Below, in pieces: positions 1,958-25,158 of a DNA stretch of 29,269 nt (position 1 is the stretch's first letter; each line of letters opens with the position of its first letter). The stretch is from a virus, in the IMG/VR virus record IMGVR_UViG_3300013099_000063, positions 1 to 29,269 of that record. One strand, written 5' to 3'. The position numbers and the translations under genes were made by a program. The notes under the pieces are model-generated. The model saw only the letters and a list, made by a program, of their open reading frames with translations, did not search any database and was not told the DNA's origin.

Positions 1958-1972
1958 CAAATTATAATTTTT

Positions 1973-1980
1973 AAGGAGGA
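1973..1980 (+). promoter_or_regulatory. Strong Shine-Dalgarno site of the major tail protein gene
   Basis: AAGGAGGA lies six bases before ATG 1987, a near-perfect anti-16S match. This fits the very high copy number expected for a tail tube subunit. Confidence 0.85.
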
Positions 1981-1986
1981 TTTAAA

Positions 1987-3012: not shown

Positions 3013-3035
3013 TAATAACGTAATTTAATTACTAT

Positions 3036-3077: not shown

Positions 3078-3094
3078 TTAATCGCACAACCAAA

Positions 3095-3101
3095 AGAAGG
3101 A
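3095..3101 (+). promoter_or_regulatory. Ribosome binding site that decides the chaperone start
   Basis: AGAAGGA lies nine bases before ATG 3111. It is downstream of the hairpin, whereas the alternative GTG 3042 has no comparable site and would be buried in the stem. Confidence 0.65.
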
Positions 3102-3110
3102 AAGATTATC

Positions 3111-3853: not shown

Positions 3854-3854
3854 A

Positions 3855-6800: not shown

Positions 6801-9092
6801 ACGCTTGATACAATTATTGATAAATGGACACAACAAAAAGATCAAGGTGCTTTTGTTGCTAATTATATTGATGAATATAAAGCTCTTGGGGGTGTAATTG
6901 ATGAAACAAATCAAAAAGAATATGCGGCCTTAGTTAAAAATGCTGAACTTCGGGAAGATTTAATCAAGCAACTTCAGGAAGCTAAAGATTTATTAAAAAC
7001 TGAGTTAACTGGAGCGGGTCCGGAAGAACAAGAAGCTGCTTATAAAAAATATTATACTACTCGAAATGTACTGGTTGAGAAAGCCAGAGTTATTACAACC
7101 TCAGCCGCCAAAAATGAATTAACTCAAACTATCTTAGCATTGAAACGTATATCGACGGAGAGAGATAACGCTTTAAAACTCAATGAAGTTAAAAATGCAA
7201 ATTCTGTTCGCATTAGAATGGAAGATGAATTAAAGATTATTGCTGAGTTTGAAAGAAAAAAGAAATCTATTTTGGAAAAGACCATTGATCCTAAAGTACT
7301 TCTTGCAGATACAAAAGAAGAAGTTACAGGAATTGAGGCTGAGTATGCTACTTTATATTCTAAATTAGAATTAGAAGTTTTAAATCATAAAAAAACTGAA
7401 AAAGAAGCTGCAATAGAAAAAAGTGCATTATTACAGGAAGAAGCTAATAAAATTGTTGCTATTTGGGCAGAAGCGAATAAAAAGATTATTGATCAAGATG
7501 AACCGGACTCACCTGCGGTACGTGCCATAAGAAAAGCTCAATTAGATGCTCAAATTGCTCTTGGTAAAGCTAAAGTAAAAGCCGCAAAAGATACCAATAA
7601 AGCAATAATGAAAGAACAGAAAGATCAATATAAGTTAATGGTAAAAGAAGTTAAAAATGCTGCATCCGATGTCGATAAAGAAATTGCGGAAGTTGAAATG
7701 AAAGCTGCAAAAGGATTAATTTCTGGTGATGAAGCTTTCAGACAAATTGCTCAACTTAGATTAGAGGCAATTGGAGATCAAAAAGATGCTTATATAAAGC
7801 TCAAAAACGTCGCTGAAGAGTTCTTTGGAAAAGATAGTACTCAATATCTCTCAGTATTAGCACAACTTAATAAATTAGATGTTTCTCGTACTCAGATTTT
7901 GATTTCTGAAGCTTCCGCAAATAGAAAACTTGTTCAGTCTATGAAAACACTTAAAAATGAACGTGCTTTAATGGGACAAGAGGGGATTATTGAGGAAGCT
8001 GGAAAAGGGCAAAGTGGGGATACTGAGTTAATTAAGATGACTCGCATTTTTGAAGCAGAAAAAACATTTTCAAAATTAAAAATTCAACAGAAGCAAGATG
8101 AAATAGCTGAATTACAAGTAATGGAAGGTGATAATATAGTTAAGCTTGCTAAATTAGAAAATGATCTTTTTTCTTTAAGACAACAGCAGTCAATAGATTT
8201 AAATGCTCACTTAAAAGCGGCTTCTGAGGAACGAATGCAAGTTGCGGAAGAAGAATGGAGACGCGGTATAATTAGTGCTGAAGAATATTCTGCGGCAGTA
8301 AAAGAAGCTTTTACTGCGGGTGCAATTGGCGCTGAAGAATTACGAACCCGAACTCTTGCATCTACTGGTAGTATGTGGGAAAATTTTCAAGAAGGCACGT
8401 ATCAAGCAATGGAGGGTGTGCAATCTCTTGGAGAGTTTATGCAGGGTGCAGGTGCCCAGATGTTTGACTCCTTTGGTAATGGTATGGCTGATGCTTTTAG
8501 TTCTTTTCTCGAAGGAACAAAATCCGCCAAAGAAGCAATGTCAGATTTTGCAAAATCATTCTTGATTGAGATTCAACGAATGATTGTAAAACAATTAGTA
8601 TTTAATGCTTTAAAATCTATTGCAAGTTATGGAATGTCAGATGGTGGATTAGTTCCATCTTTTGCAAGTGGAGGGCGAATCCCGGGCAATTCCCCTACTT
8701 CAACTTCTGATAATATTAGAATTAATGCTACTGCTGGTGAGTTTATGCACCCAGTTAAAACAGTTAAGCATTATGGTGAGGATGTAATGGAATTATTGAG
8801 AAGAAGAATGATCCCTAAGGCATTATTTACTAATGCGTTAAGTGGTTTAACGACAAAATTTCCTACATTAAGTCGTAAGAATTACTCCCTTGCTTCTGGA
8901 GGATCAGTTCCTTCTACAAATCGAGACCGAGACACGGTAACTTTACCTTCAGAACAAAAACAACCCATTAATATAATTAATGTCACTGATCCAAGAGAAG
9001 TTGGTAATTATCTTGCAACTTCCGAAGGTACCAATGCTTTGATGAACGTATTGAGTTCTAAGGCTCAGACACTTAAAAGGATATTAAGATGA
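3855..9092 (+). CDS. Tail tape measure protein
   Basis: At 1745 residues this is the longest gene in the window and follows the chaperone pair. Residues about 65-220 are four 40-residue repeats. Residues about 300-525 match the phage minor tail / tape measure core (YDQALKDLQAITRASG, then KFSASEVAAGMRIIGQAG, and AAMGTLANSGIRASTIGTGLRR). Residues about 600-705 are strongly hydrophobic with several membrane-type segments, as expected for the part that crosses the inner membrane during DNA entry. A long charged coiled-coil region follows. Residues about 1525-1600 resemble the lambda-type C-terminal tape measure domain, followed by DGGLVPSFASGGRIPG and a GEFMHP motif. By the usual rule of about 0.15 nm per residue the tail could be up to about 260 nm. 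ATG is preceded by AAGGAG and the stop overlaps the next start (ATGA). Confidence 0.93.
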   Translation: MASDTKKTVEIGLKITGFDKNTLKSITTAFTNLQKTVEKTQLSIEKLGNSLKNLKVPPTFIKSIDSLKQLNDIKAPNIKNLSSGLKELMSIKFSGFNLKMTSVVVGLKQLNAVKVPNILQLANGLSKLMKTSFSGFNLKITTVVNGLKRLVGIKVPNILQLANALSKLMKTSFSGFNLKITSIATALTKLQGISVPSITGLANGLKKLVSLDVGKVAAKIRELSNALKELGKQGFLKVFATFARDLNNLASGFNKATTAANRASRSFKNLGSTAKDSGLKLRTFGDKIRTVLEFRSISAGILQVRDAITSGVTAIIEYDQALKDLQAITRASGLEVSQMGAKILEVAATTKFSASEVAAGMRIIGQAGFSASESIETMQAVSDLATGTLSSMASTVDLVTTAMRVYNIESSRSNEVADVFANAVNRSKLTIDKLRTSMNFIGPVATAAGVSFAELNAAMGTLANSGIRASTIGTGLRRIFAELIDPSEKLKKAARQAGIALSDLDPRSASLTDVFKNLKLILADTGVAFDIFGKRGAAAALALAKNPEKYQEMLEVISESGTAADMAATQMEGLGVAFKNLRDRLGNLAIALGEAGLTDILRGLVVIIKNLIIAVTALVNSAFGQFLIRVVAISAAIYGLTKAFLILKVALKGFVALRAATAFGTMIPAVHGATVAVGGLSLALGPLIIAVAAVTLGLGYMFKKFGASKKASDEASILADEYGRLSKQLLDYRIATVNLATDSKEYAEANKTLRAELLEVAQGVGSVAEKAREAALSINPLTGEIANNGEALAKYKKEIETFQITKIVEGLNKATEHLEAQSTAMSRWVDRWKDAAGQIGIYLSSTADQISAAFDGNFREIPGMWAKAWKDASKRGAAFQTAQDFSKAIAQGKKSFDEIAKYANELGAKFDLTSSEKSFLNSFKLIQERGVKAFKHLQETGQIDIRHTVEQVEATAKGLNLSKLAVEAVVRQFKELKKASSDTLDTIIDKWTQQKDQGAFVANYIDEYKALGGVIDETNQKEYAALVKNAELREDLIKQLQEAKDLLKTELTGAGPEEQEAAYKKYYTTRNVLVEKARVITTSAAKNELTQTILALKRISTERDNALKLNEVKNANSVRIRMEDELKIIAEFERKKKSILEKTIDPKVLLADTKEEVTGIEAEYATLYSKLELEVLNHKKTEKEAAIEKSALLQEEANKIVAIWAEANKKIIDQDEPDSPAVRAIRKAQLDAQIALGKAKVKAAKDTNKAIMKEQKDQYKLMVKEVKNAASDVDKEIAEVEMKAAKGLISGDEAFRQIAQLRLEAIGDQKDAYIKLKNVAEEFFGKDSTQYLSVLAQLNKLDVSRTQILISEASANRKLVQSMKTLKNERALMGQEGIIEEAGKGQSGDTELIKMTRIFEAEKTFSKLKIQQKQDEIAELQVMEGDNIVKLAKLENDLFSLRQQQSIDLNAHLKAASEERMQVAEEEWRRGIISAEEYSAAVKEAFTAGAIGAEELRTRTLASTGSMWENFQEGTYQAMEGVQSLGEFMQGAGAQMFDSFGNGMADAFSSFLEGTKSAKEAMSDFAKSFLIEIQRMIVKQLVFNALKSIASYGMSDGGLVPSFASGGRIPGNSPTSTSDNIRINATAGEFMHPVKTVKHYGEDVMELLRRRMIPKALFTNALSGLTTKFPTLSRKNYSLASGGSVPSTNRDRDTVTLPSEQKQPINIINVTDPREVGNYLATSEGTNALMNVLSSKAQTLKRILR
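4050..4500 (+). repeat. 120-bp tandem repeats in the tape measure gene
   Basis: Four units of 120 bp encode 40-residue helical repeats with KVPNI, a leucine/asparagine-rich helix and SFSGFNLKIT. Units at 4201-4275 and 4321-4395 differ at only 3 of 75 bases, while the outer units are more diverged, so the middle duplication is recent. Confidence 0.9.
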
Positions 9093-10768
9093 CGATTGAT
9101 ATTAATGAATATCTGTTAATTCCTCCTAATTGGGATAACGGTATTAAATATAAACGAATTTGGAATACTGGGATTCAATTAAGTATTAATGCTATGGAAA
9201 AACGTTCAGCATTGTTTACTTGGTCAAGATTGTTTTTGTCTTTTTCTATATTAACAATGTCTGCCAGTGAAACCAATTATATGATACGAAAGTTTTATAA
9301 ATCACTGCATTTGGTTTGGGGAATTCCTTATTGGCCCGACAGAATAGATTTAACAAGTCAAGCAGCTTTGGGACAAGCTGTTTTGAATGTTGAAGATACT
9401 ACGAATTTAAACTTTGCAGTAGATGGAAAATGCATTATCATAATTGATGAAAATACGTATGAAGCTGGTACTATTTTAAGTATGACAACAAATACAATTA
9501 CTTTAGATGCTAACCTTTCGGATACATGGGTTTCAGGTACTATGGTCTATCCTGTATTAAAAGCACGATTACAGATTAAGCAAAGTGCAGATGTTCCTCT
9601 TGCTGGACACACTATATTTGAAATTGATGCGAATGAAGTTCCTGATGTGGATGTAACTCATGTCCCAATGACTACATCATCATTTCCAATAAAATTTGGT
9701 TTGCCTGTTTTTGATTTATTACCTGATTGGTCAAGTGGTTTAAAATTACAATTTCACCATAATTTTGAATCTTTAAAATTTTTAGGCCCTGAATTTACAT
9801 TATCAACTATAAATGAATCAGCTCTTGATTTAGATATGCAGTTTTTGCAGGCTACAAATGCGGAAACAAATGAAGTTCTGGCATTCTTTGATGATAATAA
9901 AGGTCGATGGGGAACTTTTTTAATCCCTTCTCAAATGAATGATATTGTAATTACTGAGGATTTTGTTTCGACAGATACAATATTCACAATTGAAGACATT
10001 GATTGGAGTACTTATTGGGATGAGATGACTTCCATGGGACATATACTTCAATTTAGATTTCCTGATGGGAGTGCAGTATATAGAACGATAGTGGGTGCTA
10101 CAGGTACATCAATGACTATAACTCCGGCTATAGGAGAGAATATAACGGAATCAGCTTTGCCAAATTTAACAGTTTCATTTTTATACCAAGTACGATTCAA
10201 TATGGACGAAATAGAAGTTTTGAAAGTTACAGATACCATCTCAAAGTTTAATTTAAGATTTAGAACTGTCTATAATGATGGAGTTGATATAGTCACCCCG
10301 TGTACCGTTTTCGGTGCAACTGTTTGTGAAGTTGATTTCGCTATTGGTGAAGAAGACCCATCATATTCGGGTGGTGGGTACGATGGTATATCCTCTGCAA
10401 CTGGTATTGATAACTGTTGGTATGCATGGGAGACATTTCCTAAAAATACAGGATGGACGGGACAGGATTTTGGAGTAGATAATTTTAAAATAATTGTACA
10501 GTATTCTCTTATTTCGTTTAATGATACTGAGCGATCTTATGATCCTAAAGATTGGACATTTGAAGCTTCTGACACAGGTGCGTGGGGTGGAGAGGAAGTC
10601 GTGTTAGATACTCAAACTGATCAATCATTTACCCAAATGGAACAAAAGGATTATTCTATTTCTAATAATACTGCTTATAGATATTATAGACTTAATGTTA
10701 CTGCAAATAATGGACATGGTTCGTATTTAATAATCCCCGAAATAGAAATGAGTGAATGTGTGGAATAA
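9089..10768 (+). CDS. Putative distal tail protein with C-terminal discoidin-like domain
   Basis: This 559-residue protein lies between the tape measure and the DUF2163 hub gene, the position of the distal tail protein in GTA and lambda-like tails. The N-terminus has a basic/aromatic section (KRIWNTGIQLSINAMEKRS, then KFYKSLHLVWGIPYWPD) like distal tail N-domains, followed by repeated beta modules of the type gtMVYPVLKARLQI. Residues about 420-557 look like an F5/8 type C (discoidin) carbohydrate-binding domain, ending in YDPKDWTFEASDTGAW and YRYYRLNVTANNGHGSYLIIPEIEM. That would expose a glycan-binding module at the distal tail ring. It starts on the ATGA overlap with the tape measure. The tail ring role is inferred from order; the discoidin-like pattern is seen in sequence. 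Confidence 0.65.
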   Translation: MTIDINEYLLIPPNWDNGIKYKRIWNTGIQLSINAMEKRSALFTWSRLFLSFSILTMSASETNYMIRKFYKSLHLVWGIPYWPDRIDLTSQAALGQAVLNVEDTTNLNFAVDGKCIIIIDENTYEAGTILSMTTNTITLDANLSDTWVSGTMVYPVLKARLQIKQSADVPLAGHTIFEIDANEVPDVDVTHVPMTTSSFPIKFGLPVFDLLPDWSSGLKLQFHHNFESLKFLGPEFTLSTINESALDLDMQFLQATNAETNEVLAFFDDNKGRWGTFLIPSQMNDIVITEDFVSTDTIFTIEDIDWSTYWDEMTSMGHILQFRFPDGSAVYRTIVGATGTSMTITPAIGENITESALPNLTVSFLYQVRFNMDEIEVLKVTDTISKFNLRFRTVYNDGVDIVTPCTVFGATVCEVDFAIGEEDPSYSGGGYDGISSATGIDNCWYAWETFPKNTGWTGQDFGVDNFKIIVQYSLISFNDTERSYDPKDWTFEASDTGAWGGEEVVLDTQTDQSFTQMEQKDYSISNNTAYRYYRLNVTANNGHGSYLIIPEIEMSECVE

Positions 10769-10777
10769 GGAGAAATT

Positions 10778-11611
10778 ATGAAAGATATTGCACAAGATTT
10801 TATTGATAATGAAGAAGCGGAACAACGTAAACCCGTTGAGTTGTATCATATTTGGCGAGATGGTGGAGTTGATTGGCGTTATACGGATGGAGATGTTGCT
10901 GTAACTTATGATGGAGAAGAATATACTCCCGCTACATTAGAGCGTGGGTCTGTCTCTTTTGAAAATAAACTTGATGTCACCACACTGGTCATTAAAGCTG
11001 CGTATGTGGAAAATCCTGTTCTGGATTTTATTGCATCAAACCCAGTTGAAATTCTTTGGGTATCTATAATGAAATTACATAGGGATGATTTGACCAATGC
11101 AGATGTTGTTTTTATTGGACAAATAAAGAATGTAGCGTTTCAGGGCAGTGCTGCCTCAATTACATGTGTTGGATTTGAGCATTTTTTGAAAAAAACAGTT
11201 CCTACGTGGAGATACCAATTAACATGTAATCACAATGTATTTGACAGTAAATGCCAATTAGTTGGGGCTACATATACGGTAACTACTGCAATAAGTTTGG
11301 ATGCGACTGGAGTTCAATTAACAAGTTCTGATTTTACCCAGGATGCTTCTTCAGAAGATGTTGAAGATGGTTACTGGACTGGTGGGCAAGTCCTTTTTGG
11401 TGATGAAGCTCGAACGGTAATTGCTCATGTAGATAATACAATTACCTTAATGTACAAAATGAAAGAGTTAGAGGATACTGATACAATTACAATTACTCCT
11501 GGATGTGATGGGAGAGTTGAAACTTGTTTTGCTAAATATAATAATGTTATTAACTTTTTGGGTTTTCCATTTATTCCAGTTGAAAATCCTGCACTTAGAG
11601 TAAGTTGGTAA
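10778..11611 (+). CDS. Tail hub protein, DUF2163 / Phage_BR0599 family
   Basis: The 277-residue product has the two-part structure of GTA gp13-like hub proteins. The N-terminal domain contains VELYHIW and YDGEEYTPATLERGSVSFENKL, and the C-terminal BR0599 domain ends in PGCDGRVETCFAKYNN followed by INFLGFPFIP. Cysteines 150, 159, 243 and 250 are positioned as in lambda gpL and GTA hub proteins, where four cysteines hold an iron-sulfur cluster. The protein forms part of the ring connecting the distal tail to the tip. It lies nine bases after the distal tail gene with an AAGGAG site built into the stop region, and ten bases before the peptidase gene. The family call is firm; the cluster is inferred from the family. 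Confidence 0.88.
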   Translation: MKDIAQDFIDNEEAEQRKPVELYHIWRDGGVDWRYTDGDVAVTYDGEEYTPATLERGSVSFENKLDVTTLVIKAAYVENPVLDFIASNPVEILWVSIMKLHRDDLTNADVVFIGQIKNVAFQGSAASITCVGFEHFLKKTVPTWRYQLTCNHNVFDSKCQLVGATYTVTTAISLDATGVQLTSSDFTQDASSEDVEDGYWTGGQVLFGDEARTVIAHVDNTITLMYKMKELEDTDTITITPGCDGRVETCFAKYNNVINFLGFPFIPVENPALRVSW

Positions 11612-11620
11612 GGAGATGAA

Positions 11621-12082
11621 ATGACTGATTATTATTTTGATAATAAAGAGAAAGATGCACAATTAAAAATTATTTTAGATGAATGGTTAGATACGCCTTT
11701 TAAACATCATTGTGGTGTTAAGAATTTAGGATGTGATTGCATCCATTTTGCTATTCGAGTTTTTGAAGAAATGGGGTTAATGGCGTACACAAAAGATATG
11801 ATTCCTGATTACCCTCGTGATTGGCATTTGCACAATACAAGAGAAGCTCTATTAGAAGCGATTTTTAAACACTTAGACGTTGAACAAATAGAATTGAATA
11901 GTAATGTACACATTAACGGGGATATCATTCTATCGCACTATGGACAAGCTTCATCTCATGTGGGTATTTTATATGGAAAACACGTATATCAATCTTTGAC
12001 TGGATTAGGGGTTAAGAGAATACATTTTGATGATCAAAAATTCAAAAAGCAAATGAAATTTATATTTAGGATTCTTGTCTAA
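11621..12082 (+). CDS. NlpC/P60 tail-tip cysteine peptidase
   Basis: The 153-residue protein has the NlpC/P60 fold signature: a WLDTPFKHH helix entry, LGCDCIHFAIRVFEEMG with the catalytic Cys40, and SSHVGILYG with the catalytic His113. In GTA and lambda-like tails this peptidase cuts peptidoglycan peptides locally as the tip crosses the cell wall, and is encoded between the DUF2163 hub and the J-like hub, exactly as here. An AAGGAG site overlaps the preceding stop. The stop TAA abuts the next ATG with no spacer. Length is standard for the family. Confidence 0.9.
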   Translation: MTDYYFDNKEKDAQLKIILDEWLDTPFKHHCGVKNLGCDCIHFAIRVFEEMGLMAYTKDMIPDYPRDWHLHNTREALLEAIFKHLDVEQIELNSNVHINGDIILSHYGQASSHVGILYGKHVYQSLTGLGVKRIHFDDQKFKKQMKFIFRILV

Positions 12083-14305
12083 ATGGGTTCAACTGGGCAA
12101 ATAGTTGGTGCGATTGTCGGGGCAATAATTAGTTATTTTATTCCTGGATTATCTTTAGTGTATGGTATGGCTCTTGGCTACGCTGTGGGCGGAATTATTG
12201 ATCCTGCAACTCCTGATATATCTACTCCCGGAGTTCCAGATATAGGTCAAATTGTAATGACGAGTACTGTGGGTGATCCGGTACCTATTGTGCTTGGTTC
12301 TGCCAAAATCACGGGACACCTTCTTGCTTATGGGAATGAGCGTACTGTAGAAATTACAGCAGAACAGGACTCTGGTGGCAAGGGTGGTGGTGGCGGTTCT
12401 ACTACTTATGTAACCGGACATAAATATTATATGACATGGGTTTTAGGATTGTGTACTGGACCAGTAAATACTTTATATGCAATTTACAAGGGTGAAGATG
12501 TTGTTTGGGAAGGTGAACTCAATCTTGATGATGCTGTTAATGGAGAAGAAACTATTGTAATTGATGGAATTGGTTCTTGCACATTTTATTTTGGAACTGA
12601 TGACCAAGTAGTTAATAGCATTATCGAAGAAATTATCCCTAATTCAGATTATAATACACCTTATAGAAATTTCTGTTATGTTCTTATGAATGATTGTTAT
12701 ATTGGGAATTATTCTCGGACACCTACATTTCATTTTATAGTTTCTAAAATACCTGAGTTTAGTTTTTCAGAAAGACATAGTATCCAAAAATATGATTGTA
12801 ATCCAGCCCATGCTATATGGTATATTTTACATACTGTTTCGGGATTGCCGACGTCTTGGTTGAATGAAGACACTTTTACGTCTTTAGCGTCATCTTGTGC
12901 CCAGGAGTATCGAGGAATTAGTTTATTATTAGTAAGTAATCAGAGTGCGGCAGAATATATACAAGCTATAACTGCGCATATTGATAGTATTTTAATATAT
13001 GGTTCAGATGGAAAATTTCATCCAAAAGTAATAAGAAATGATTATGATGTAGATTTAGTACCGAGTATTTCGGAAGACGTTTTGGTTGAAGATCCTACAT
13101 TTACACGTAGAAATTGGAATGATACGGTTAATGAAATGAAGGTCCAATACACGGAACTTATAACATTACGTGAGAAAATTGCCACATATAATTTATTTGG
13201 TGTAGGCAGTAATACACAAGTAGGTGGAGGTGGTTCTCAATTATGGGGGTATGTGGGAGGTACAATTGGAGCTACAACTCCCGTTCCGTTAGAAGGTTTA
13301 TGGGAGAAAATAGTTATTTCTCCAGAATCTTATACATCGTATATGCATAATGGTGATAATTGGTTTGCTGCGGGAAGTAATAGAAGTTATGAATTTGGGT
13401 TAGGACATACTGACACTAACTTAGGTATCACTGAGTTAAATATACATTCAGATACTATACATACAATAGCTTCCAGTCGTGCCCCGTATAGTACAGAGCA
13501 TACAAAAACATGCTCTATTAAGTATGTTGTGGGCACTTCTGGAGAACGAGACCATGGTGTGCAAGGCGATGGGTTATTGACTGGGGTTGTTACAATTTTT
13601 GAACAAGAATCAACTTTCAATACATTCTCCAAGGTAGCTGTGGGTTCAGACCACAGTTTAGCTTTGGGTTTAAATGGTATTATTTATGCTGTAGGATGGA
13701 ATGGGCAATTACAATGCGGGCAAGGTTGGGTTGGTGGTGATGTGTTAACTTATTCTCCAGTATTGGCAAATGTTGAGGAAGACATTGATAATGATTGGAT
13801 TGATATTGTTGCAGGGGGTTACACTTCTTACGGTATAAAAATTGGGGGTGCGCTTTACGGATGGGGACAAAATGGTGTCAATCTTGGGAGTAGATTTGGA
13901 GACGGCACTACTGATCCTTATGTACCATATCCGAGGTACATAAGTTCGGGATGGTCAAAATTTAAAGCAGGGACATATCAAACTATAGGACTAAAGGAAG
14001 ATGGTACTATTTGGGGTACCGGTATGAATGGTACTGGATGGGCAGGGTTCTCTGGGGATATTTCTACTTGGACACAATTAATGCCCGGTAGTAATTGGAT
14101 TGATTTTGCTATAGCTGGAAGTGTTTCACAAACAGGGGCTTGCGGTTTGCTTTTGAATAGTGATGGTGATTTATATGTATCAGGATTTTTTAAATCTTAT
14201 CCAAATACACGAATAAAAGATTATGGTATAGGATTTCAGTTATTAGATACTGATGTAAGTTTTATTGAAGGTGGAGCGGAACATTTTATTTACGGGAAAT
14301 TATAA
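12083..14305 (+). CDS. Tail-tip hub N-terminal module, copy 1, fused to an RCC1-type beta-propeller
   Basis: This 740-residue protein is the first of three paralogues. Residues about 1-368 are the J/GTA gp15-like hub N-half: a hydrophobic Gly/Ala-rich lead (QIVGAIVGAIISYFIPG), IDPATPDISTPGVPD, a phage tail core with GKGGGGG loop, KYYMTWVLGLCTGPV, CTFYFGTDDQ and YNTPYRNFCYV, ending in NEMKVQYTELITLRE. From residue about 370 the sequence changes to repeats of the regulator of chromosome condensation (RCC1) type, such as VAVGSDHSLALGLNGIIYAVGWNG and IVAGGYTSY with ALYGWGQNG. These predict a multi-bladed beta-propeller. In other phages the hub C-half would follow here instead. The propeller is a likely receptor or glycan binder. 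Confidence 0.85.
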   Translation: MGSTGQIVGAIVGAIISYFIPGLSLVYGMALGYAVGGIIDPATPDISTPGVPDIGQIVMTSTVGDPVPIVLGSAKITGHLLAYGNERTVEITAEQDSGGKGGGGGSTTYVTGHKYYMTWVLGLCTGPVNTLYAIYKGEDVVWEGELNLDDAVNGEETIVIDGIGSCTFYFGTDDQVVNSIIEEIIPNSDYNTPYRNFCYVLMNDCYIGNYSRTPTFHFIVSKIPEFSFSERHSIQKYDCNPAHAIWYILHTVSGLPTSWLNEDTFTSLASSCAQEYRGISLLLVSNQSAAEYIQAITAHIDSILIYGSDGKFHPKVIRNDYDVDLVPSISEDVLVEDPTFTRRNWNDTVNEMKVQYTELITLREKIATYNLFGVGSNTQVGGGGSQLWGYVGGTIGATTPVPLEGLWEKIVISPESYTSYMHNGDNWFAAGSNRSYEFGLGHTDTNLGITELNIHSDTIHTIASSRAPYSTEHTKTCSIKYVVGTSGERDHGVQGDGLLTGVVTIFEQESTFNTFSKVAVGSDHSLALGLNGIIYAVGWNGQLQCGQGWVGGDVLTYSPVLANVEEDIDNDWIDIVAGGYTSYGIKIGGALYGWGQNGVNLGSRFGDGTTDPYVPYPRYISSGWSKFKAGTYQTIGLKEDGTIWGTGMNGTGWAGFSGDISTWTQLMPGSNWIDFAIAGSVSQTGACGLLLNSDGDLYVSGFFKSYPNTRIKDYGIGFQLLDTDVSFIEGGAEHFIYGKL

Positions 14306-16318
14306 ATGAGTTTAGGTCAAATATTAGGTGGTATTGTTGGTGGGATTGTTGGCTTCTTTACCGGAGGTCCTTACGGAGCTTTATATGGAATTTTGATAGG
14401 TGCTGGCATTGGGGGCTATATTGATCCAAATACTCCTGATCTACCAACTCCAGGTGCCCCAGATCCGCAAATTCAATCAATGTCTGGTAAAATTGGTGTG
14501 GGTGTTCCTGATTTATGTGGTTCTGCCAAAATCACGGGACATCTTCTTGCTTACGGGAATGAGCATCATATCGAAATAACTGAAACTCAAGAATCTGGGG
14601 GCAAGGGTGGGGGAAGTAGTTCTACTACTTATGTAACCGGATATACTTATTACATGACATGGGCAGTTGGTATTTGTACTGGACCTGTTAATACACTATA
14701 TACAATCTTTAAAAATGAGGATGTTGTTTGGGAAGGTGAACTCAATCTTGATGATGCTGTTAATGGGGAAGAAACAATAACTTTAGATGGTATGGGTTCT
14801 TGTACATTTTATTTTGGAACGGATGACCACGTACAGAATTCAGTCTTAGAAGATATAATTCCCAATCCCGATTACAATACGCCTTATAGAAACTTCTGTT
14901 ATGCAGTTCTGGATGACTGTATAATTGGGGAATATCCAAGAACCCCCACGTTAAAATTTTTGATTAGAAAAATTCCTGAATATTCATTTTCTGATTTTGG
15001 AGAAATACAAACTTATGATTGTAATCCAATGAATATTATTTGGTATTTGTTATATGAGGTTATTGGAGTGCCTGAAAGTTGGTTGGATACTACTGTATTT
15101 GGTGAAGTTGCGAATGTCCTTAATAGGGAACATAGAGGATTAAGTATTTTACTCGATAAACAACAAGACGCTTTAGTTTATTTACAAACTGTAAATTTTC
15201 ATATTGATAATATTTTGTCCTATTCAAATGAAGGAAAATTTTATCCAAAATTATTTCGAGATGATTATGATGTAGATGCTGCACCTATTGTAGATGCCGA
15301 TGTTATAGTAGATAACCCCGTTTTTAATAGAAAATCATGGAATGATACTATTAATGAGGTAAAAGTTCAATACACACAATTAACAGCCCTTCGTCCAGTC
15401 GAATGGGTTATTGATGATAATATAGTGTACCTAAATGTGATTGATATGGCGTGGACGGATACTCTTGGAGGAATCTATGGTCGTTTTGTAGCAGTTGGAT
15501 TATATGGAACATCCCATTATTCTGATGACGGAGGTTACACATGGACAGCAGTTCCATTTCCGGTATATGATACTTATAATTGCACTCAAATTGAATACCA
15601 GAATGGATTATTTTTTGCAAAAGGTACGAATTGTTTTACTTCAGTAGATGGTGAATCTTGGACTACTCTTGATATTGGTGGTACTGCCTATAATGGTTGT
15701 GTTGCGTGGAATGCGGAATATGAAAGATGGGTGCTGATAGTTTCAATTGGAACTCCAGAATATATTAGAATTTCGGAGGATGATGGAGATACTTGGATTA
15801 CGAAAAGTGGTGCTGGTAATTATTCATCTCATTGGGGTAGTATGGAATTTGGAGCAAATCACTACACATTTGTTACATCAGGACCTGGATTTATGTCAGA
15901 AGACACGGATACCTGGGGAAGTTATAATACAAGTAATTTAGGAACAATAGGTGGATTAGGTGTCCGAGTACGACAAGCTGCCGCAAATCATCCTAATCCG
16001 ACTATTATGGTTTGTGCAAATTGTTATACTCTGGATGCTATAACTTGGATACGAATGACTACTCCTGAAGCGATTGCTCCTCCAGTAATGCAAAATTTTG
16101 ATTACTCACCATCATTTGGATTTATGGGTTCTTGGTCTGGATTATCTGGTGATCCAGATTTTGGATATAGTGGAACTATGATATCTACAGATGGAATTAA
16201 TTGGGTGAACCAAGAAATGCCTGCAACTGCTGTCACTCATTATGGTTGTTGTTGTGGTGGGGATAGATGGATTCAAACCCGTAGGTCGGATGGTTTGGTT
16301 ATAGGACGTATGAAATGA
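14306..16318 (+). CDS. Tail-tip hub N-terminal module, copy 2, fused to a BNR/Asp-box beta-propeller
   Basis: The 670-residue second paralogue has the same N-terminal module (residues about 1-363), with IDPNTPDLPTPGAPD, GKGGGSSS, MTWAVGICTGPV, CTFYFGTDDH and YNTPYRNFCYAVLDD, ending in NEVKVQYTQLTALRP. Residues about 367-670 contain sialidase-type Asp-box motifs (SDDGGYTW, SVDGESW, SEDDGDTW, STDGINW), each followed by a hydrophobic strand, so a second type of beta-propeller is predicted. No sialidase catalytic set (Arg triad, Tyr/Glu pair) is evident, so binding is more likely than cleavage. ATG directly abuts the stop of copy 1 and the ribosome site is weak, which suggests translational coupling. 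Confidence 0.85.
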   Translation: MSLGQILGGIVGGIVGFFTGGPYGALYGILIGAGIGGYIDPNTPDLPTPGAPDPQIQSMSGKIGVGVPDLCGSAKITGHLLAYGNEHHIEITETQESGGKGGGSSSTTYVTGYTYYMTWAVGICTGPVNTLYTIFKNEDVVWEGELNLDDAVNGEETITLDGMGSCTFYFGTDDHVQNSVLEDIIPNPDYNTPYRNFCYAVLDDCIIGEYPRTPTLKFLIRKIPEYSFSDFGEIQTYDCNPMNIIWYLLYEVIGVPESWLDTTVFGEVANVLNREHRGLSILLDKQQDALVYLQTVNFHIDNILSYSNEGKFYPKLFRDDYDVDAAPIVDADVIVDNPVFNRKSWNDTINEVKVQYTQLTALRPVEWVIDDNIVYLNVIDMAWTDTLGGIYGRFVAVGLYGTSHYSDDGGYTWTAVPFPVYDTYNCTQIEYQNGLFFAKGTNCFTSVDGESWTTLDIGGTAYNGCVAWNAEYERWVLIVSIGTPEYIRISEDDGDTWITKSGAGNYSSHWGSMEFGANHYTFVTSGPGFMSEDTDTWGSYNTSNLGTIGGLGVRVRQAAANHPNPTIMVCANCYTLDAITWIRMTTPEAIAPPVMQNFDYSPSFGFMGSWSGLSGDPDFGYSGTMISTDGINWVNQEMPATAVTHYGCCCGGDRWIQTRRSDGLVIGRMK

Positions 16319-16334
16319 TTAAAGGATTAAACAT

Positions 16335-18329
16335 ATGAGTTCTAATGGAGGTATATTAGGAGCTATAGTTGGGGGGATTATAGGTTATTTGGTGCCTGGT
16401 TTAGGCATGTTATATGGTGTTAGTCTTGGGTATGCTGTAGGAATGATGATTGATCCTGCAACTCCTGATCTGCCTACTCCCGGAGTTCCTGATCCTCAAG
16501 ATATTGTTATGTCAAGTTCTGTGGGTACTCCAGTTCCTGATTTAATTGGTACTGGAATGATAACGGGACACCTCCTTGCATATGGAAATGAACGTGTAGA
16601 AGAAGTCTATGACACAATGGAAGGTGGTGGAGGTAAAGGTGGTGGGGGTGGTGGTGATAAAACATATATTTCAGGCTATTTATATTATATGTCTTGGGCT
16701 GTTGGTATTTGTGCTGGTCCCATTTCAGCCTTGCATACAATATTTAGGGAAGATGAAGTTGTCTGGGAAGGATCTCTTGAACTTCCGGAATCTGGCGGAG
16801 AAGAAACAATCACTTTAGATGGAATGGGTTCCTGTACGTTCTATTTTGGAACAGATGATCAAGTAGCAAATGATCTTGTGGCTGAATTAATTCCCAATCC
16901 CGATTATAATACTCCTTATAGAAACTTCTGTTATGCTGTTTTAGATGATTGTATAATGGGTGAATACACTGATAGATGTCCAACTTTACGTTTTGTTATT
17001 TCTAAATTACCTGAATATGATTTTTTGTCAAATAAAGAAATAATTCAAGAATATGATTATAATCCCATTCATGGAATTTGGCATATTTTACATAATTTGT
17101 GTGGATTATCTGAGAATTGGTTAGATGAAGATTCTTTTGCTGTATCTGCTGATGCATGTTTTCTTGAGTATAGAGGAATAAGTGCTTTGTTTATCTCACA
17201 ACAATCTGCAATTGATTACATAGCCACTTTGAATATGCATGCCGATTGTGTACTTAGATATGGGTCTGATGGGAAGTTTCATATTAAATTACTTCGAGAT
17301 GACTATGCTGTAGAAAGTTTACCTGTAATTGAAGAATCTGTTTTAGTAGACGATCCAACATTCAAAAGAGATAGTTGGGCAGGCACTATTAATGAGGTGA
17401 AGGTACAATATACTGAATTAATTACTGTTCGTAAAAAGGAAGTTTGGCTTAATAATTGTTATTTTATCGACAATGGAATTCATGCGGCATCAACCACGTG
17501 GATGCCCTCCAATAACCTTCTCGGAACTTTTGTAATTGGAGATTATGTAGGACAAGTACATTTATCCATCGATGGTGGGAACACTTGGGCAACAGCAGGT
17601 GAGTTAGATGGTGCGACTGGTGAAGTATATGTTTCTTATGAAAATTCTTATTTATTTGCCGCATCTGGTAATTATGTGTATAAATCAGGAAATTTGGGAA
17701 TATCCTGGGTGAAAGGTACTGCATTACCATATTCTGGTGTGGTTAGGTTTGCTGTAAAGTGGAATAGTGCTGGTGAAAAATATGCTTTAATTGGTGAGTG
17801 GTCACCTCGAACAAGATGGCTCACTTCAGTGGATGGTTTGTCTTGGGATTATGAATGGTATCTTAGTCTATACGCTGGGTACAGTGCGAGTATAGAATTT
17901 GATAATGATCATTGGATTGGAACTTTTAGTGAACAAACTGTTTTAGCTATATCAAGTGATGATATGACTACAAAACGTATTCCAACTGGTGTCTTTCCTT
18001 CTGCGGGTTCAGTTCATTATGAAATGGCGACCGATGGAGTCATATTAACTTGGGGACTGGGGTATAAAGATACATTCGATAATGATTTTAAACGCAATGA
18101 TGGGACACTTATAACTTTCATGCGTTATAATTCAATAGCCCGACTATGGTTGGGTTCGCAACATACTGGTTCGGGTCCACGTGGCATATTTCAATCCAAA
18201 GATGGAATAAATTGGGAAGTTGTTGATTGTGCTGCGGGTCCTTTTGGAACTGTCAATTCTGTTGCACTTGGAAGTGGCAGCGGAATTTGTATAAATTCCG
18301 TTCGTGGATTGTGGATTTTAGAAAGATAG
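16335..18329 (+). CDS. Tail-tip hub N-terminal module, copy 3, fused to a second BNR/Asp-box beta-propeller
   Basis: The 664-residue third paralogue repeats the hub N-module (residues about 1-367), with IDPATPDLPTPGVPD, a longer Gly-rich loop (GGGGKGGGGGG), YMSWAVGICAGPI and YNTPYRNFCYAVLDDC, ending in NEVKVQYTELITVRK. The remainder is a different Asp-box propeller with SIDGGNTW, SVDGLSWDY and SKDGINWEV; it differs strongly from that of copy 2. Unlike copy 2 it has a 16-base spacer with AAAGGA before its ATG. The stop is followed at once by the gene for the missing hub C-half. Receptor binding is inferred; the sequence shows no catalytic residues I can identify. Confidence 0.85.
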   Translation: MSSNGGILGAIVGGIIGYLVPGLGMLYGVSLGYAVGMMIDPATPDLPTPGVPDPQDIVMSSSVGTPVPDLIGTGMITGHLLAYGNERVEEVYDTMEGGGGKGGGGGGDKTYISGYLYYMSWAVGICAGPISALHTIFREDEVVWEGSLELPESGGEETITLDGMGSCTFYFGTDDQVANDLVAELIPNPDYNTPYRNFCYAVLDDCIMGEYTDRCPTLRFVISKLPEYDFLSNKEIIQEYDYNPIHGIWHILHNLCGLSENWLDEDSFAVSADACFLEYRGISALFISQQSAIDYIATLNMHADCVLRYGSDGKFHIKLLRDDYAVESLPVIEESVLVDDPTFKRDSWAGTINEVKVQYTELITVRKKEVWLNNCYFIDNGIHAASTTWMPSNNLLGTFVIGDYVGQVHLSIDGGNTWATAGELDGATGEVYVSYENSYLFAASGNYVYKSGNLGISWVKGTALPYSGVVRFAVKWNSAGEKYALIGEWSPRTRWLTSVDGLSWDYEWYLSLYAGYSASIEFDNDHWIGTFSEQTVLAISSDDMTTKRIPTGVFPSAGSVHYEMATDGVILTWGLGYKDTFDNDFKRNDGTLITFMRYNSIARLWLGSQHTGSGPRGIFQSKDGINWEVVDCAAGPFGTVNSVALGSGSGICINSVRGLWILER

Positions 18330-18333
18330 ATAT

Positions 18334-18338
18334 GGGAG
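18334..18338 (+). promoter_or_regulatory. Ribosome binding site that decides the start of the hub C-half gene
   Basis: GGGAG lies eight bases before ATG 18347. Starting there avoids overlap with copy 3 and gives the sequence MAITFKESI. The reading frame extends further upstream, but only as a shadow of copy 3. Confidence 0.6.
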
Positions 18339-18346
18339 TTAATAAA

Positions 18347-19726
18347 ATGGCTATTACATTTAAAGAATCAATTTCAAGTCCAGTAGCAGTGGATATAGGG
18401 AATCAAACTGTTCAAGGCAGGATTGTTTCCAAAACTGTAAAATTTGGGTTGTTTACCACTAATGAAAATGCAGTATGGGCGGCAAAACAACAATTGCAGA
18501 AAGAATCATATCCTTTTGCTTTTATTTCCATTCCAGTAAATAGAAATATGTTTCGTTTGCAGGTTGGAGATGTGTTTAAATTTTCCTATGGTCCATATGG
18601 CATAACAGATATGATTTGTAGAGTTCTTCAAATTGAAGAAGAAGGTTTAAAATCTGAAAAGATTATTATTCATGCTATGGAGGATATATTCTCAGTTGCT
18701 AATGCGATTACGGAATATGGTGATCCTGAAGATAATACTTCAGTAGCGCCTGATTATGCAATAGATCCTTTTACCGTGCAACAAGTACGAGAAGCAATAC
18801 ATGTATTATCTCCTGATTCGATCGGGATTGTGCCGTTGGCAAGTTCTGATAATGAACTACTTCTTGGATACGATGTGTACATGAGTATTGATGATGGGTC
18901 TTCGTATTCTTTTTTAGGAAGATCAACAAGCATTCAGCCATACGGCACGTTAAATGCTGAATATCCTTTAACGTACTCAATTGATGATTCAGTTGGTTTT
19001 GTTGTGGATTTTGTAAATGGTCAAGATACTCTCGAAACTATTACTTTATCTGAAGCTTTAAGTGGTAGTAAAAATGGAGCTTTGCTTGGGGATGAGTATA
19101 TAACTTTTCAAACTATTACTCCAATTACTGAAACCCAATACCGAATTGACGGAATTATCAGAAGTAGATGGGGAAGTGAGCAAGCTGTTCATGCAGTTGA
19201 TACCCCGTTTACTGTTATACCAGCCCCTTTAGTTTTGAAAAATGTGGAAATTTCTGCGGGTGCAGATAGAAAATTTAAGTTCGTTCCATTTAATAACAAA
19301 TTTTCTGGTAGTATAGCTGATGCTATTGCTATAGATTTAAGTATTGTTGGAGTAGCAAAAACCCCATATAAGCCTACTAATTTTATAGCAAATGATGGGG
19401 CATATGATGCACGGTATGATGATGATGTTGATTTAGAGTGGGATTGTAGAGTGCGAGGAGAGGGGGCAGGAATTGGTATTCCCGGTACAGTACTTGCAGA
19501 TGATACACATGAAGGATTGTTTAAAGTTGAGGTTTGGGTAAGTGCTGCTTTAGTTAGAACCACTACTGACTTAGATGCTTTATCCTGGACATATACTGAA
19601 GCTATGAATTTAGCAGATAATACATCCCTTGCATCAGAAATTACTTTCAAATTAACAAATTTTATAGTAGACTCAGGAATAACATACGAATCAGAGGCAG
19701 TGGAAGTGATTTGTACATTAAATTAG
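18347..19726 (+). CDS. Tail-tip hub C-terminal half (separate gene)
   Basis: The 459-residue product aligns in pattern with the second half of GTA gp15 / J-like hub proteins. It contains SPVAVDIGNQTVQGRI, then AVWAAKQQLQKESYPFAF, a strand with FRLQVGDVFKFSYG (the leiGDvv section), RVLQIEEE and IIIHAMEDIF. Further on it has IIRSRWGSEQAVHAV and a fibronectin type III-like end (KTPYKPTNFIANDGA). In related phages this follows the N-module in one chain. Here the N-module occurs three times upstream, each ended by a propeller, and the C-half is made once. It lacks the hydrophobic lead of the N-module. It very likely assembles with one or more of the three upstream products to complete the tip. Confidence 0.8.
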   Translation: MAITFKESISSPVAVDIGNQTVQGRIVSKTVKFGLFTTNENAVWAAKQQLQKESYPFAFISIPVNRNMFRLQVGDVFKFSYGPYGITDMICRVLQIEEEGLKSEKIIIHAMEDIFSVANAITEYGDPEDNTSVAPDYAIDPFTVQQVREAIHVLSPDSIGIVPLASSDNELLLGYDVYMSIDDGSSYSFLGRSTSIQPYGTLNAEYPLTYSIDDSVGFVVDFVNGQDTLETITLSEALSGSKNGALLGDEYITFQTITPITETQYRIDGIIRSRWGSEQAVHAVDTPFTVIPAPLVLKNVEISAGADRKFKFVPFNNKFSGSIADAIAIDLSIVGVAKTPYKPTNFIANDGAYDARYDDDVDLEWDCRVRGEGAGIGIPGTVLADDTHEGLFKVEVWVSAALVRTTTDLDALSWTYTEAMNLADNTSLASEITFKLTNFIVDSGITYESEAVEVICTLN

Positions 19727-19735
19727 GAGGAAAAA

Positions 19736-20728
19736 ATGACTACCGAGAAATATGATTTACATACTATAGATTATTCAGTACAGGGATGGGACGCCATTTT
19801 AAATACTGATATGGAAAAGTTAGATGACATGATCACTTCCAGAATGATTAATACTATAGGTGAGACGGTTGCTCAATATGATGCAGTTTATTTAAAATCT
19901 GATGGAAAATTTTGGAAAGCACAAGCTGATGGAACTAAACAACCTGCATTGGGATTAATGATTGAATCAGGTGTTGCCGATGACGAAAAACGAATACAAC
20001 GGGAAGGTGTGATAACGAATGTTGCGTGGTCATGGACTACAATTGGAGCGTATGTGTATTTAGATGGGTCAACGGCAGGAGATTTAACAGAAACCGAACC
20101 CTCATCTAATGCTCAGGTTATTGGATATGTTTTGTCTGCTACTTCAATATTTTTTAATCCAGTTGTTATTGCAGAACGTCCATTTGAGATTGGTGGTACT
20201 TGGAATGCCGTACTTGAGGATAGTATGGTTTTATTGAGATTGCCAATTTATAAAGCTTGTACTTTTCCGGAAGATTTAGTTGATTCAAATTTATATGCGG
20301 AAATAAGTGCGACTGCAAGTACGGTTATTACTTTGAAAAAGAATGGAACTTCATTTGGGACGGCAACATTTTTGCCAGATACAAATCCTGATGCGGCGGT
20401 TGCTGTCGATAAAACTGGAGGTAAAGTAGGTATTCCCGTTACCGCTCATGGATTGTCTGAAGGACAGAAAATCATTCTTGATGGAACAACAAACTATGAT
20501 GGAACTTACGAGGTTGACGCTGATTCGTCGACAAATGAAATAGTGATAGTTGCTACTTATGTAGCTGAAACCTTCGCAGGAACAGAAGATATACTACTCT
20601 CATGGGCGTTTTTTGTAGCAGCTTCGGAAACGTCATTTGTTGCAAACGATATTTTGACAATAACTGCTCCAGTCACAGCAGATACCACTCTTGCAGATTT
20701 AGGATGGGTGATTGTTGGTACAAGATAA
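19736..20728 (+). CDS. Tail fibre-like protein with an interrupted C-terminal beta domain
   Basis: This 330-residue protein starts like many phage fibre N-termini (YDLHTIDYSVQGWDAILNTDMEKLDDMI). Residues about 40-145 resemble DUF2190-type beta domains (AQYDAVYLKSDGKFWKAQAD, ALGLMIESGV, GAYVYLDGSTAGDLTETEP). Residues about 175-224 and 286-330 look like two parts of one fibre C-terminal domain (TVITLKKNGTSFGTATF and then SFVANDILTITAPV, TLADLGWVIVGTR). Residues about 225-285 (VTAHGLSEGQKIILDGTTNY and following) form a separate module seen in other phage tail proteins, here inserted between them. A GGAGG site at 19727-19731 precedes the start. It is a likely receptor-binding or fibre-base component; no enzyme motif is visible. 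Confidence 0.65.
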   Translation: MTTEKYDLHTIDYSVQGWDAILNTDMEKLDDMITSRMINTIGETVAQYDAVYLKSDGKFWKAQADGTKQPALGLMIESGVADDEKRIQREGVITNVAWSWTTIGAYVYLDGSTAGDLTETEPSSNAQVIGYVLSATSIFFNPVVIAERPFEIGGTWNAVLEDSMVLLRLPIYKACTFPEDLVDSNLYAEISATASTVITLKKNGTSFGTATFLPDTNPDAAVAVDKTGGKVGIPVTAHGLSEGQKIILDGTTNYDGTYEVDADSSTNEIVIVATYVAETFAGTEDILLSWAFFVAASETSFVANDILTITAPVTADTTLADLGWVIVGTR

Positions 20729-20737
20729 GGGGGAGAA

Positions 20738-23700
20738 ATGAGTTATACATTTAAATCAATTATTTTAGATGCGGCTGATAATCATGGAGATGCAAGCTAT
20801 ATCGGAATTCTATCAGTGGATTTCTGGTTTGAAGGTTCCAAAATAACTAATATAGAAACAACTGATTTTGTTGCTTATGCAACTACGGAATATAGTACCA
20901 GTTACGATGCAGCTATGGCTTTTGATACCTCCCTTCCAAAAACAGGTACAGCTACGGGTAACCGTTGGTATTCATCCGTAGGCAATAATAGCATTCAAAG
21001 ATTGATTTGTGTTTTTAATTCTGAAACAGAATTTGATGAAATTAGAATAAATAATTCTCATCATGGAGGCACATTAACAGATCGTGGTATTAATAATGTA
21101 AAAATACATGGTTCTACGGACAGTATTACTGACACAACCTATGATGCCGCAATTGCAAATTCTACGTTAATTTTTGATGGTGTCTTTGCAGAACATGTTG
21201 GTACTGACACTGAAGATGAGGAAATTTTAACTTTATTAGTAAATAAATTTCAAATTACTATTGATGCTGGTGATATTGATTCTGATTTAACTCATTTTCC
21301 TTTACTCATTATTTTAAATTCTGAAGAGAATGAATATCATAAAACTATGTTTGAAGCTATTCAACATGATTGGCGTAAATTAAAAATAACCAAGGCTGAT
21401 AATTCTGAATTATATGTAGAGAAAGTTCATTGGGGTGGTGGTCCAGGAATTGTTTTGCATATTCATTCAGATACGTATGATGGTAGTGTTATGTATAAAG
21501 ATAGTTCTCAGTATTCTCATTTAATTGATGGTGCTGTTGTGCGTCACAGTACCGACCAATCTCAATGGGGTGATAGTTCTATAGACTTACCAGGGAATAG
21601 TGGTTTAGTTATTGCAGCTTCCCCCTATTTACAATTTACAGGTGATTTTACAATTCATCAATGGGTTTACCCCACTGGCGGCGGGTCCATGTCGTTAGTT
21701 AATTATGATTCATCTAATAATTTTCACGCATTATATTTAGATTCAAGTACATCAGGAAGGGTCATTATTGCTGGAGCAAATAACCTAACAGGAATTGTTT
21801 TAACAGCCGATACTTGGCAACATTTTGCTTTAGTAAGAAATGGAACTTCATTAAAAGCTTATATTGATGGCGTACAATCAGGGACCACTGGCACATCTTC
21901 GGGAACAGTAGGTGGGGTTACTCTTAATTATATAGGTCGTTCTACTTCTACACATTATGGAAATGGATACATTGATGAAATTATTGTTCATAATGGAGAA
22001 GCTCTTTGGACTACGACATTTACCCCACCAACTGCGGCAATGGTAAACATGTACGGAGTATTATGGGCTTCCCGTGATGATTTCGTAATTTCATCTTCGA
22101 CAGATACAGTTTTGGAATTAGAGTATGGAGCCACTCCAATAGAGCGTCTTGAGTTTTTTGATGATGTGCATAGAGGCCCCGATTTAGTTGTTGCCGATAA
22201 CGGAAGAACTCTCTCACACGGGGCGGCGGCTGTTGATTACGAGCAAGTTATTTGTAAACAAGGACGAACAACCGGAAAATGGTATTTTGAAGTAATTTGC
22301 ACATCTACAAGTATTTATGAAGCAATTGGAGTGCAAAGAGGTTATGAAACTCCCGAAACATACGTAGGTGATACTGTTAACGGATGGGGTTTCATGAACA
22401 CCTTGTTTTTCAATAGTACGACTGTGACGCCAACTGATACATTTAATACTGGTGATATAGTCGGTGTTGCCGTGGATATGGATAATGGTTATATTTGGTG
22501 GAGTATAAATGGAACTTGGGTCGGTGTCTCTGGTGATTCTCCCAATCCAGTAACAGGCACCGATCCAGCCTATTCAAATTTACCTGATGTGGTCTATCCG
22601 GCTTTATCAATGTACACCTTAACTTCTGAAATGACAGCTTGTTTTATTGAATCCCATATGAACTATTCAATACCTTCTGGATTTTCAGCTTGGTGTGAAG
22701 ATTCTACAGTCGGAAATAATATTGATTATGTTAGTTCAGTAGATAATTTGGATTCACAAAACAAAACTGTTACTGCTAAATCAATAATTTTAGATATTGC
22801 TGATAATCATGGGGGTTCATATATTGGTGTTCGCTCTATTGATTTCTGGTTGAATGGTGAAAAGTTGACTGTTTTGACCGCTGATATTACTGCATATGCA
22901 ACAACTGAATATAGTACGGGACAAGCTGAGTATGCGTTTGATACTTCTTATACGAAAATTGGAACTGGTACAAACACACAGTGGTTATCAAATGCAGTAA
23001 CAACTAATCAAAGATTAATTTGTGTTTTTGATCTACCTATTGTGTTTGATACAATTATTATCAATAACGCTCACGGTTCTGGGACTAATACTGATCGTGG
23101 ATCGCAGAATGTTGTTATTAATATTTCCTCCGATGCAATTACTGACACAACTTATGATGCTGCCATTGCAAATTCAACAGAGCTTTTTGATGATGTATTT
23201 AGAGAACATCAAGCAGTGGATCAAGAACATTCACAAGTGGTGTATGTTGCTGCTCCATCAATTGAACAGGTGGATGCGACTTTTCTGCTTTCTTCCGATA
23301 CTACAGATGGAAGTGTAGTATTTCAAGATTCGTCTTTTAGTGGACATGGTATTGAATATGCGGGGGACACTCATCATGAAGATACGGAAAAGCAATTTGG
23401 GGCCACCTCTATTTATTTTGATGGTACTGAAGATTATTTAAGTATTCCTGATTCGACTGATTTTACATTTGGTTCGGGGGATTGGACAATTGATTTCTGT
23501 ATGCAACGAGGTCGAAATTCCACTCGTGAAATGGTTTTTGGTCAATGTGATTCGTCAGGCAATGGCTCTTCTATTTCAATGAGAATGGAAATTACAGCAG
23601 GAGATGTCGTTTCTTTGTACTTAATGAATTCAAATAAAGCTTCATCTTATTCATTATCTGATACCAGTAATTTTTATCATATAGCCTGGGTTAGAAAGGG

Positions 23701-24714: not shown

Positions 24715-25158
24715 ATGAAAATCTATCGAAATTTGAACGTTCTGCATCCAGTGCTTGCTCAGTGCGCAAGAAAGATTCAATCAAGCATTATCGACACATA
24801 TAACGTCCCTATGCGCCTATTTGAAACAGGACGAGATCACGAAAGACATGAGATGTTAATTAATAGAGGGAAAACAAAGAATATTGTATCAAGACATCTT
24901 TATAATTTAGAAAATGATCCTCCTTTATATGCAACAGCGATTGATTATGTTCACTATGATAAAAAATGGTCGTGGAATTTGCGTGATGGAACTACAACAG
25001 CATGGTATATTTTATTTGCTAATCTTGTGCTTGATGCATGTCCTGAATTAAAATGGGGTGGGTCTAATAGGAAGAGTGTTAATTTCTGTCATTTTGAATT
25101 GAGCAAAGAAATAATAATTTCAAAATTAGATGAAATTCCATGTGTGGTTCCTTTATGA
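24715..25158 (+). CDS. Endolysin, M15-type peptidase (L-Ala-D-Glu / D-Ala-D-Ala type)
   Basis: The 147-residue single-domain protein shows the M15 zinc peptidase pattern: RLFETGRDHERHEM, SRHLYNLENDPPLYATAIDYV with likely ligands His61 and Asp77, KWGGSNRK, and CHFEL with His126. Such enzymes cut the peptide stems of peptidoglycan and release progeny. Two oddities stand out. His61 and Asp77 are separated by 15 residues rather than the usual six or so. The position three before His126, normally the catalytic Asp/Glu (D130 in T5 endolysin), is Asn123. There is no cell wall binding domain, as in Gram-negative phages. AGAAGG lies upstream; the stop overlaps the endonuclease start (ATGA). No holin is recognisable nearby. 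Confidence 0.8.
   Translation: MKIYRNLNVLHPVLAQCARKIQSSIIDTYNVPMRLFETGRDHERHEMLINRGKTKNIVSRHLYNLENDPPLYATAIDYVHYDKKWSWNLRDGTTTAWYILFANLVLDACPELKWGGSNRKSVNFCHFELSKEIIISKLDEIPCVVPL

Follow-up and report, generated by a model that had tools for sequence, protein, structure and literature searches.

We analysed a stretch of 29,269 nucleotides of viral DNA (hereafter the window), which is a contig fragment and corresponds to positions 1 to 29,269 of the IMG/VR record IMGVR_UViG_3300013099_000063. The window holds a siphophage tail operon. Its tape measure gene (3855-9092) is followed by three genes, starting at 9089, 10778 and 11621, that are ordered as the baseplate genes g12, g13 and g14 of RcGTA. 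Behind them lie, in tandem, on the same strand and in one apparent operon, three hub N-half genes and one C-half gene (Table 1). The original prediction had placed three genes with a common N-terminal module and a common end point in front of a fourth gene at exactly these positions, and our analysis confirmed this layout.

Table 1. Genes and domains of the tail-tip region of the window, and bare adapter genes of related loci.
Feature	Position	Strand	Description and evidence
Distal tail / tail assembly protein (RcGTA g12 equivalent by order)	9089..10768	+	phrog_1082 E 1e-47; DUF2460 weak
Baseplate hub-attachment protein (RcGTA g13 equivalent by order)	10778..11611	+	PF09931, PF09356, phrog_778
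NlpC/P60-like tail peptidase (RcGTA g14 equivalent by order)	11621..12082	+	PF00877 E 2e-4, just under cut-off; gene order
N-half 1	12083..14305	+	glycine-rich N-terminal helical hairpin (iris/penetration-like), hub head and tail segment (residues 1-360)
N-half 1, C-terminal domain	13163-14302	+	RCC1-like propeller
N-half 2	14306..16318	+	module as in N-half 1, followed at 15386-16315 by a domain that has four Asp-box (BNR-like) motifs
N-half 3	16335..18329	+	module as in N-half 1, then a four-Asp-box domain at 17424-18326
Shared hub C-half	18347..19726	+	second half of PF13550 (Phage-tail_3), PF23666 (Rcc01698_C)
Bare adapter genes of relatives, 56-62 aa	L066 3985-4170; L067 2972-3151; L080 12515-12694; L110 11389-11556		no binding domain

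The three N-modules are 58-61% identical in local alignment (57-60% to copy 1 over 381 aligned columns) and close with the common motif NE-V/M-KVQYT, beyond which each copy continues into a distinct domain of 300-380 residues. Using the PHROG profile phrog_1101, N genes 1, 2 and 3 were found to match positions ~37-358 (E 2e-51, 2e-46 and 6e-48) and the C-half gene positions 363-781 (E 2e-50). Since these ranges adjoin, the hub is broken at one point. C-half segments were looked for in all three N genes and were absent. In addition, the N-half profile matched the solved hubs 8vjh (E 3e-22), 8gtc (3e-14), 6tba (6e-13) and 8rk3 (7e-12), while the C-half profile matched 8rk3 (E 3e-18, residues 295-690) and 8vjh (5e-16, residues 295-730); the PF23666 match of the C-half lies above the cut-off. 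That is, the locus encodes a GTA/lambda-J-type hub in two pieces, with three N-halves and one shared C-half, as had been proposed from the sequence. The possibility that the fourth product is unrelated to hub C-halves, which had been named as a potential objection, does not hold, given the matches to JBD30 (E 3e-18) and Chi (5e-16).

The starts of the four genes differ. N-half 1 begins in a TAA-ATG directly behind the stop of the NlpC gene, with no clear Shine-Dalgarno motif, and N-half 2 in a TAA-ATG directly behind the stop of N-half 1. The ATG of N-half 3 is preceded by AAAGGA and that of the C-half, at 18347, by GGGAG; this ATG is the likely start of the C-half, TTG 18227 being merely the first start codon of the frame. 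Since copies 1 and 2 abut the preceding stop and copy 3 and the C-half have Shine-Dalgarno motifs of their own, the amounts of the N-halves and the C-half may differ, which is a guess from the start contexts.

We then located the break on undivided hubs. In the Chi hub (8vjh), the N part spans residues 2-283 and the C part begins at 295, with a gap of ~11 residues; in the JBD30 hub (8rk3), the N part extends up to 253 and the C part again begins at 295. Among undivided relatives of the window (loci are given by L numbers), 7-20 residues separate the N and C profiles, and PF13550 runs unbroken over the junction in L064 (243-412) and L082 (243-417). Judged by these profiles, the split falls within a single domain, PF13550, where undivided hubs have a short loop. 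Since PF13550 crosses the junction in undivided relatives, the corresponding domain of the window hub would be built from two polypeptides. At the same junction, eight undivided hubs (L005, L015, L026, L044, L050, L058, L114, L126) carry an insert of 199-491 residues, which in L015 is a carbohydrate-binding domain of the CBM96 type. The split form resembles an undivided, insert-bearing hub that was cut just behind its insert, an order of events that we infer.

An AlphaFold model of the undivided L015 hub (97 sequences, mean pLDDT 81) was confident before and after an insert that was itself poorly modelled, with block means of 92-97 in the tail segment (residues 321-360) and about 95 from residue 561 on. 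Its top Foldseek hits were all tail-tip hubs (JBD30, Chi, T5, DT57C, lambda, R4C, T1, RcGTA); this agreement in fold applies to the undivided relative, not to the window proteins themselves. When copy 2 was modelled without the C-half, most of the head scored 82-96, and the tail segment fell to 59, 46, 43 and 34. The comparison of the two models is confounded by alignment depth (97 versus 33 rows). As supporting evidence, the models suggest that the tail segment needs the C-half.

Megatron hubs are single continuous chains, whereas stop codons lie between the N and C genes of the window. Joining of the pieces by frameshift, read-through or an intein was rejected because of these stops, because the copies lie up to 4 kb from the C-half and because no intein was found.

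The domains behind the common module differ between the copies. For copy 1, a propeller is predicted from RCC1 matches (PF13540 E 6e-12, PF25390 E 7e-24). Copies 2 and 3 contain four Asp-box motifs each, versus 0.05-0.07 expected, and the earlier description of these domains as propellers is carried by these motifs; the domain of copy 3 weakly resembles that of copy 2, which AlphaFold modelled poorly (mostly pLDDT 25-50). The inserts of the window are either unalignable or 33% identical over half their length, versus 58-61% for the modules, and the same trend was seen between the copies of L130 (module 77% versus insert 26% identity) and L116 (76% versus 55%). RCC1, Kelch, BNR and CBM96 domains occur among the window and its relatives, and these are domain types of binding proteins. 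Both the domain type and a divergence faster than that of the module were thus found, and because the argument is one of domain type and fast divergence, we refer to the variable domains as putative receptor-binding domains.

To place the window among its relatives, viral contigs and genomes were scanned, which yielded 186 loci including the window, 131 of them non-redundant and 68 with a complete hub region. The hub is undivided in 14 of these 68. In 43 it is split once with a single N-half, in three it is split once with two copies (L107, L116, L130), and the window is the only once-split complete locus with three. The remaining seven are split twice, with one (L073), two (L055, L067, L110, L115, L118) or three (L080) adapter genes. 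Altogether, the piece that bears the variable domain is present two or three times in 10 of the 68 complete loci (window included), six of which are twice-split. The duplicated piece is always the one that holds both the tail segment and the variable domain; the C-half was duplicated in none of the loci, and copies never exceeded three in complete arrays. L107 is split further upstream (at about residue 230) and repeats residues 233-357. In L028 and L065, two loci cut short by the contig end, at least two N-halves are present, and L043 has two N-halves, the first of which is broken. In the genome scan, relatives were found only in a Deltaproteobacteria MAG and a Desulfobacterales MAG.

Among these uncultured phages, split hubs are therefore common; what is rare, though it recurs, is a binding piece multiplied on one shared core. 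This modifies the original view of an unusual tail-tip design: the split itself is ordinary (43 of 68 complete loci are split with one N-half), and what is unusual is the multiplication (10 of 68). In the search for the same triple arrangement in other phages, the multi-copy pattern proved wider than the window, and the once-split triple array was confined to it among complete loci. Recurrence in at least five lineages (the window with L028, L116, L130, L107 and the twice-split hubs) suggests selection rather than accident.

Several further features were observed among the relatives. A second insertion site in the head, at residue ~155-190, carries extra sequence in L005, L011, L027, L045, L073 and L080. 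In L004, L019, L023 and L024, the halves are separated by small unrelated ORFs, some of which have zinc-ribbon-like cysteine pairs. Proteins encoded downstream of the C-half end in very long serine-rich runs (SSSSSLSSSS...) in L055, L067 and L080, and L043 has threonine runs in their place. L043 also shows a larger tandem duplication (1193-6528), in which the N-half and propeller gene is present twice, with hub-attachment and NlpC genes between.

All three N-modules of the window are conserved. At 45 positions, 46 other N-modules show at least 90% conservation; the window copies keep 42, 43 and 43 of these (range among the others 39-45). The dN/dS ratio is 0.26-0.32 between the window copies and 0.14-0.35 when L028 is included, with dS near saturation. 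An assembly artefact as the source of the duplication was discarded because the copies are too diverged (dS between copies about 1.1-1.3; 58-61% identity). In a tree of the full module, copies 1 and 2 each group with the copy of the same number in L028 (support 100/97 and 98/53), within a clade of these five window and L028 modules (100/99); further scans found no closer relatives of copies 1 and 2. In L116, L130 and L043, the two copies of each genome are each other's sisters, which points to independent duplications. Trees of segments gave a mixed picture: residues 1-66 group largely by position in the array, and residues 67-200 by genome (weak support, 70 and 19). Nucleotide identity is patchy as well, reaching 92% between copies 1 and 2 at codons 140-160 and 72-78% between copies 1 and 3 around codons 30-70. 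Together, the grouping of residues 67-200 and the patchy identity suggest gene conversion between the copies. The array probably predates the separation from L028 and has been partly homogenised; as residues 67-200 group by genome, its age is less certain than the full tree implies.

In twice-split hubs, a single gene encodes the head (residues 1-309), and what is repeated is a 50-residue adapter, either bare or joined to a domain. The adapter genes have their own start codon at residue ~308 (MSSKFQLKLLR..., MPSSFKLHLLR...), and their common part closes with a motif such as NDIKVQY. Their cargo is an RCC1 propeller in two adapters of L080 and one of L110, a BNR domain in L118, and short repeats in others. 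L110 and L115 have adapters downstream of the C-half, so these must act in trans as separate proteins, and translational joining is ruled out in both loci by the position of the cassettes. Since a bare adapter lacks a binding domain, the simplest use we can conceive for it would be that of a filler in a mixed trimer.

The siphophage hubs known from this family consist of one chain each and assemble as homotrimers. By cryo-EM, the hubs of RcGTA, R4C and JBD30 are trimeric at the tail tip (PMC7296036, PMC10276861, PMC11445458), in line with the trimeric nature stated at the outset for hubs of lambda and GTA type. RcGTA gp15 and the R4C megatron (6tba, 8gtc) share with the window homologous N-terminal iris/penetration and adhesin-like regions (E 6e-13, 3e-14), and RcGTA also the gene order g12-g13-g14-g15. 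Unlike the window hub, both are single undivided chains of 1304-1447 residues without paralogues; R4C has an inserted carbohydrate-binding domain, but in its peripheral domain. JBD30 gp53 and the Chi hub (8rk3, 8vjh) match both halves by profile and the undivided relative by fold, yet they are undivided, and in JBD30 the receptor-binding proteins are separate trimers. YuA gp76, the FtMidnight gp22 'tail megatron' and PaMx42_26 belong to the same family and occupy a comparable place in the tail operon, but each is one undivided gene of ~690-810 residues. Among cultured phages, 295 records match the N-module, all at less than 60% identity and at about 30% for the best-covered one. A second N-module match was found in none of these 295 records, and queries from other clades likewise matched each record at a single place. 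In open-access literature, we found no account of split, multi-copy or heterotrimeric tail hubs of this kind; as far as searched, a multiplied binding piece on a shared core is undescribed. An analogy of working, as distinct from membership, is offered by specialised VgrG heterotrimers of type VI secretion, in which subunits that differ in their C-terminal domains presumably co-assemble in a trimeric hub (PMC10433429); the VgrG hub and the megatron share a domain via the T4 gp27 fold (PMC7296036). VgrG proteins, however, carry effectors instead of receptor-binding domains, and their chains are not split within a domain.

We propose that the tail-tip hub of this phage consists of separately translated pieces that would dock non-covalently, a pairing read from the adjoining profiles. 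The ~50-residue tail segment of each N-half would complete the PF13550 domain with the start of the shared C-half, and its propeller-type domain would take the place that a short loop or an inserted binding domain holds in undivided relatives. All three N-halves would pair interchangeably with the one C-half. Given the trimeric state of homologous hubs, three equivalent N-half slots should be available at each tail tip, provided that the same stoichiometry applies here. Most likely, the paralogues would be produced side by side and occupy these slots in varying mixtures, which would place more than one putative receptor-binding domain on each virion; if mixing were free, ten trimer compositions would be possible. 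We hold the modular docking of interchangeable N-halves to be very probable. Mixed trimers, random or fixed, have about an even chance in our estimate; the bare adapters of related loci favour mixed occupancy without proving it. As a whole, a split hub with interchangeable N-halves on a shared C-half, and with mixed trimers as the likeliest state, appears probable to us, with moderate confidence. Only tentatively, and somewhat short of even confidence, do we extend it to a general design of uncultured phages, in which a docking core of two or three polypeptides would receive swappable cassettes of adapter and binding domain, bare fillers included, to form one mixed trimer per virion.

Three N-halves that are all intact, on one strand and in one apparent operon, could also serve a phage that builds three alternative homotrimers, with one kind of N-half per virion and a burst that mixes three receptor specificities; co-translational assembly or self-affinity of the modules could do the sorting. 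However, no regulatory switch was found. Promoter- and terminator-like sites were at chance level, 11500-20800 contained no inverted repeats suited to inversion, and no recombinase was present among the searched genes of the contig, itself a fragment. Phase variation by an invertible or recombinase-driven element was rejected on the grounds of the missing repeats and the chance level of the sites, and an RNA element because nothing in the window matched Rfam. In addition, a bare adapter of 56-62 amino acids would give relatives a homotrimer without any binding domain, and the 58-61% identity together with the possible gene conversion (residues 67-200) suggests that the modules are still compatible. 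We therefore consider sorted homotrimers unlikely. An obligate heterotrimer, with one of each N-half in a fixed place at every tail tip, fits the exactly three copies of the window, the absence of more than three in any complete relative array and the order of copies 1 and 2 that is kept in L028. Most multi-copy arrays have two copies, though, and 43 split relatives have one, which, with the caution that small numbers demand, argues against a general rule of three and makes this arrangement distinctly unlikely.

Other readings deny a joint use of the copies. The mosaic identity between them and the different domains on a common module would fit a recombination reservoir, in which one N-half enters the virion and the others are donors for domain swaps by gene conversion, and a decayed copy does exist in the relative L043. 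Full ORFs, starts that abut the preceding gene or follow a Shine-Dalgarno motif and purifying selection on the module speak against such silent donors, which we regard as improbable. Split phage genes are often decay products or sequencing errors, so the hub could also have been broken by mutation, with functionless remnants of tandem duplication as extra copies. To such ordinary gene decay we give hardly any credence, since 43 further complete loci, with long intact genes, are split at the same place, the conserved positions are kept and dN/dS is well below 1.

Several versions of the binding half on one core would enable a phage to present more than one binding domain with the rest of the tail unchanged; on the preferred reading of mixed trimers, one tail tip may display up to three different ones. 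Whether a particle tip has several receptor specificities thus becomes a question that experiments can answer, and the hub would offer a natural split-domain scaffold for studies of hub assembly.

Downstream of the tip genes, a gene at 20738-24697 encodes a protein of 1319 residues with repeated LamG domains and one SPRY domain, which is probably a further adhesion protein. It is followed (24715-25763) by a small endolysin-type peptidase-like gene and, behind this, a gene for an HNH_3 endonuclease (25140-25763, PF13392); the small gene had no Pfam match, and 'peptidase' is our reading of its sequence. At its end, the endonuclease gene carries a copy (25684-25757), 74% identical, of the last 74 nucleotides of the peptidase gene (25082-25155), which looks as though the endonuclease had entered the peptidase gene and supplied a substitute 3' end.
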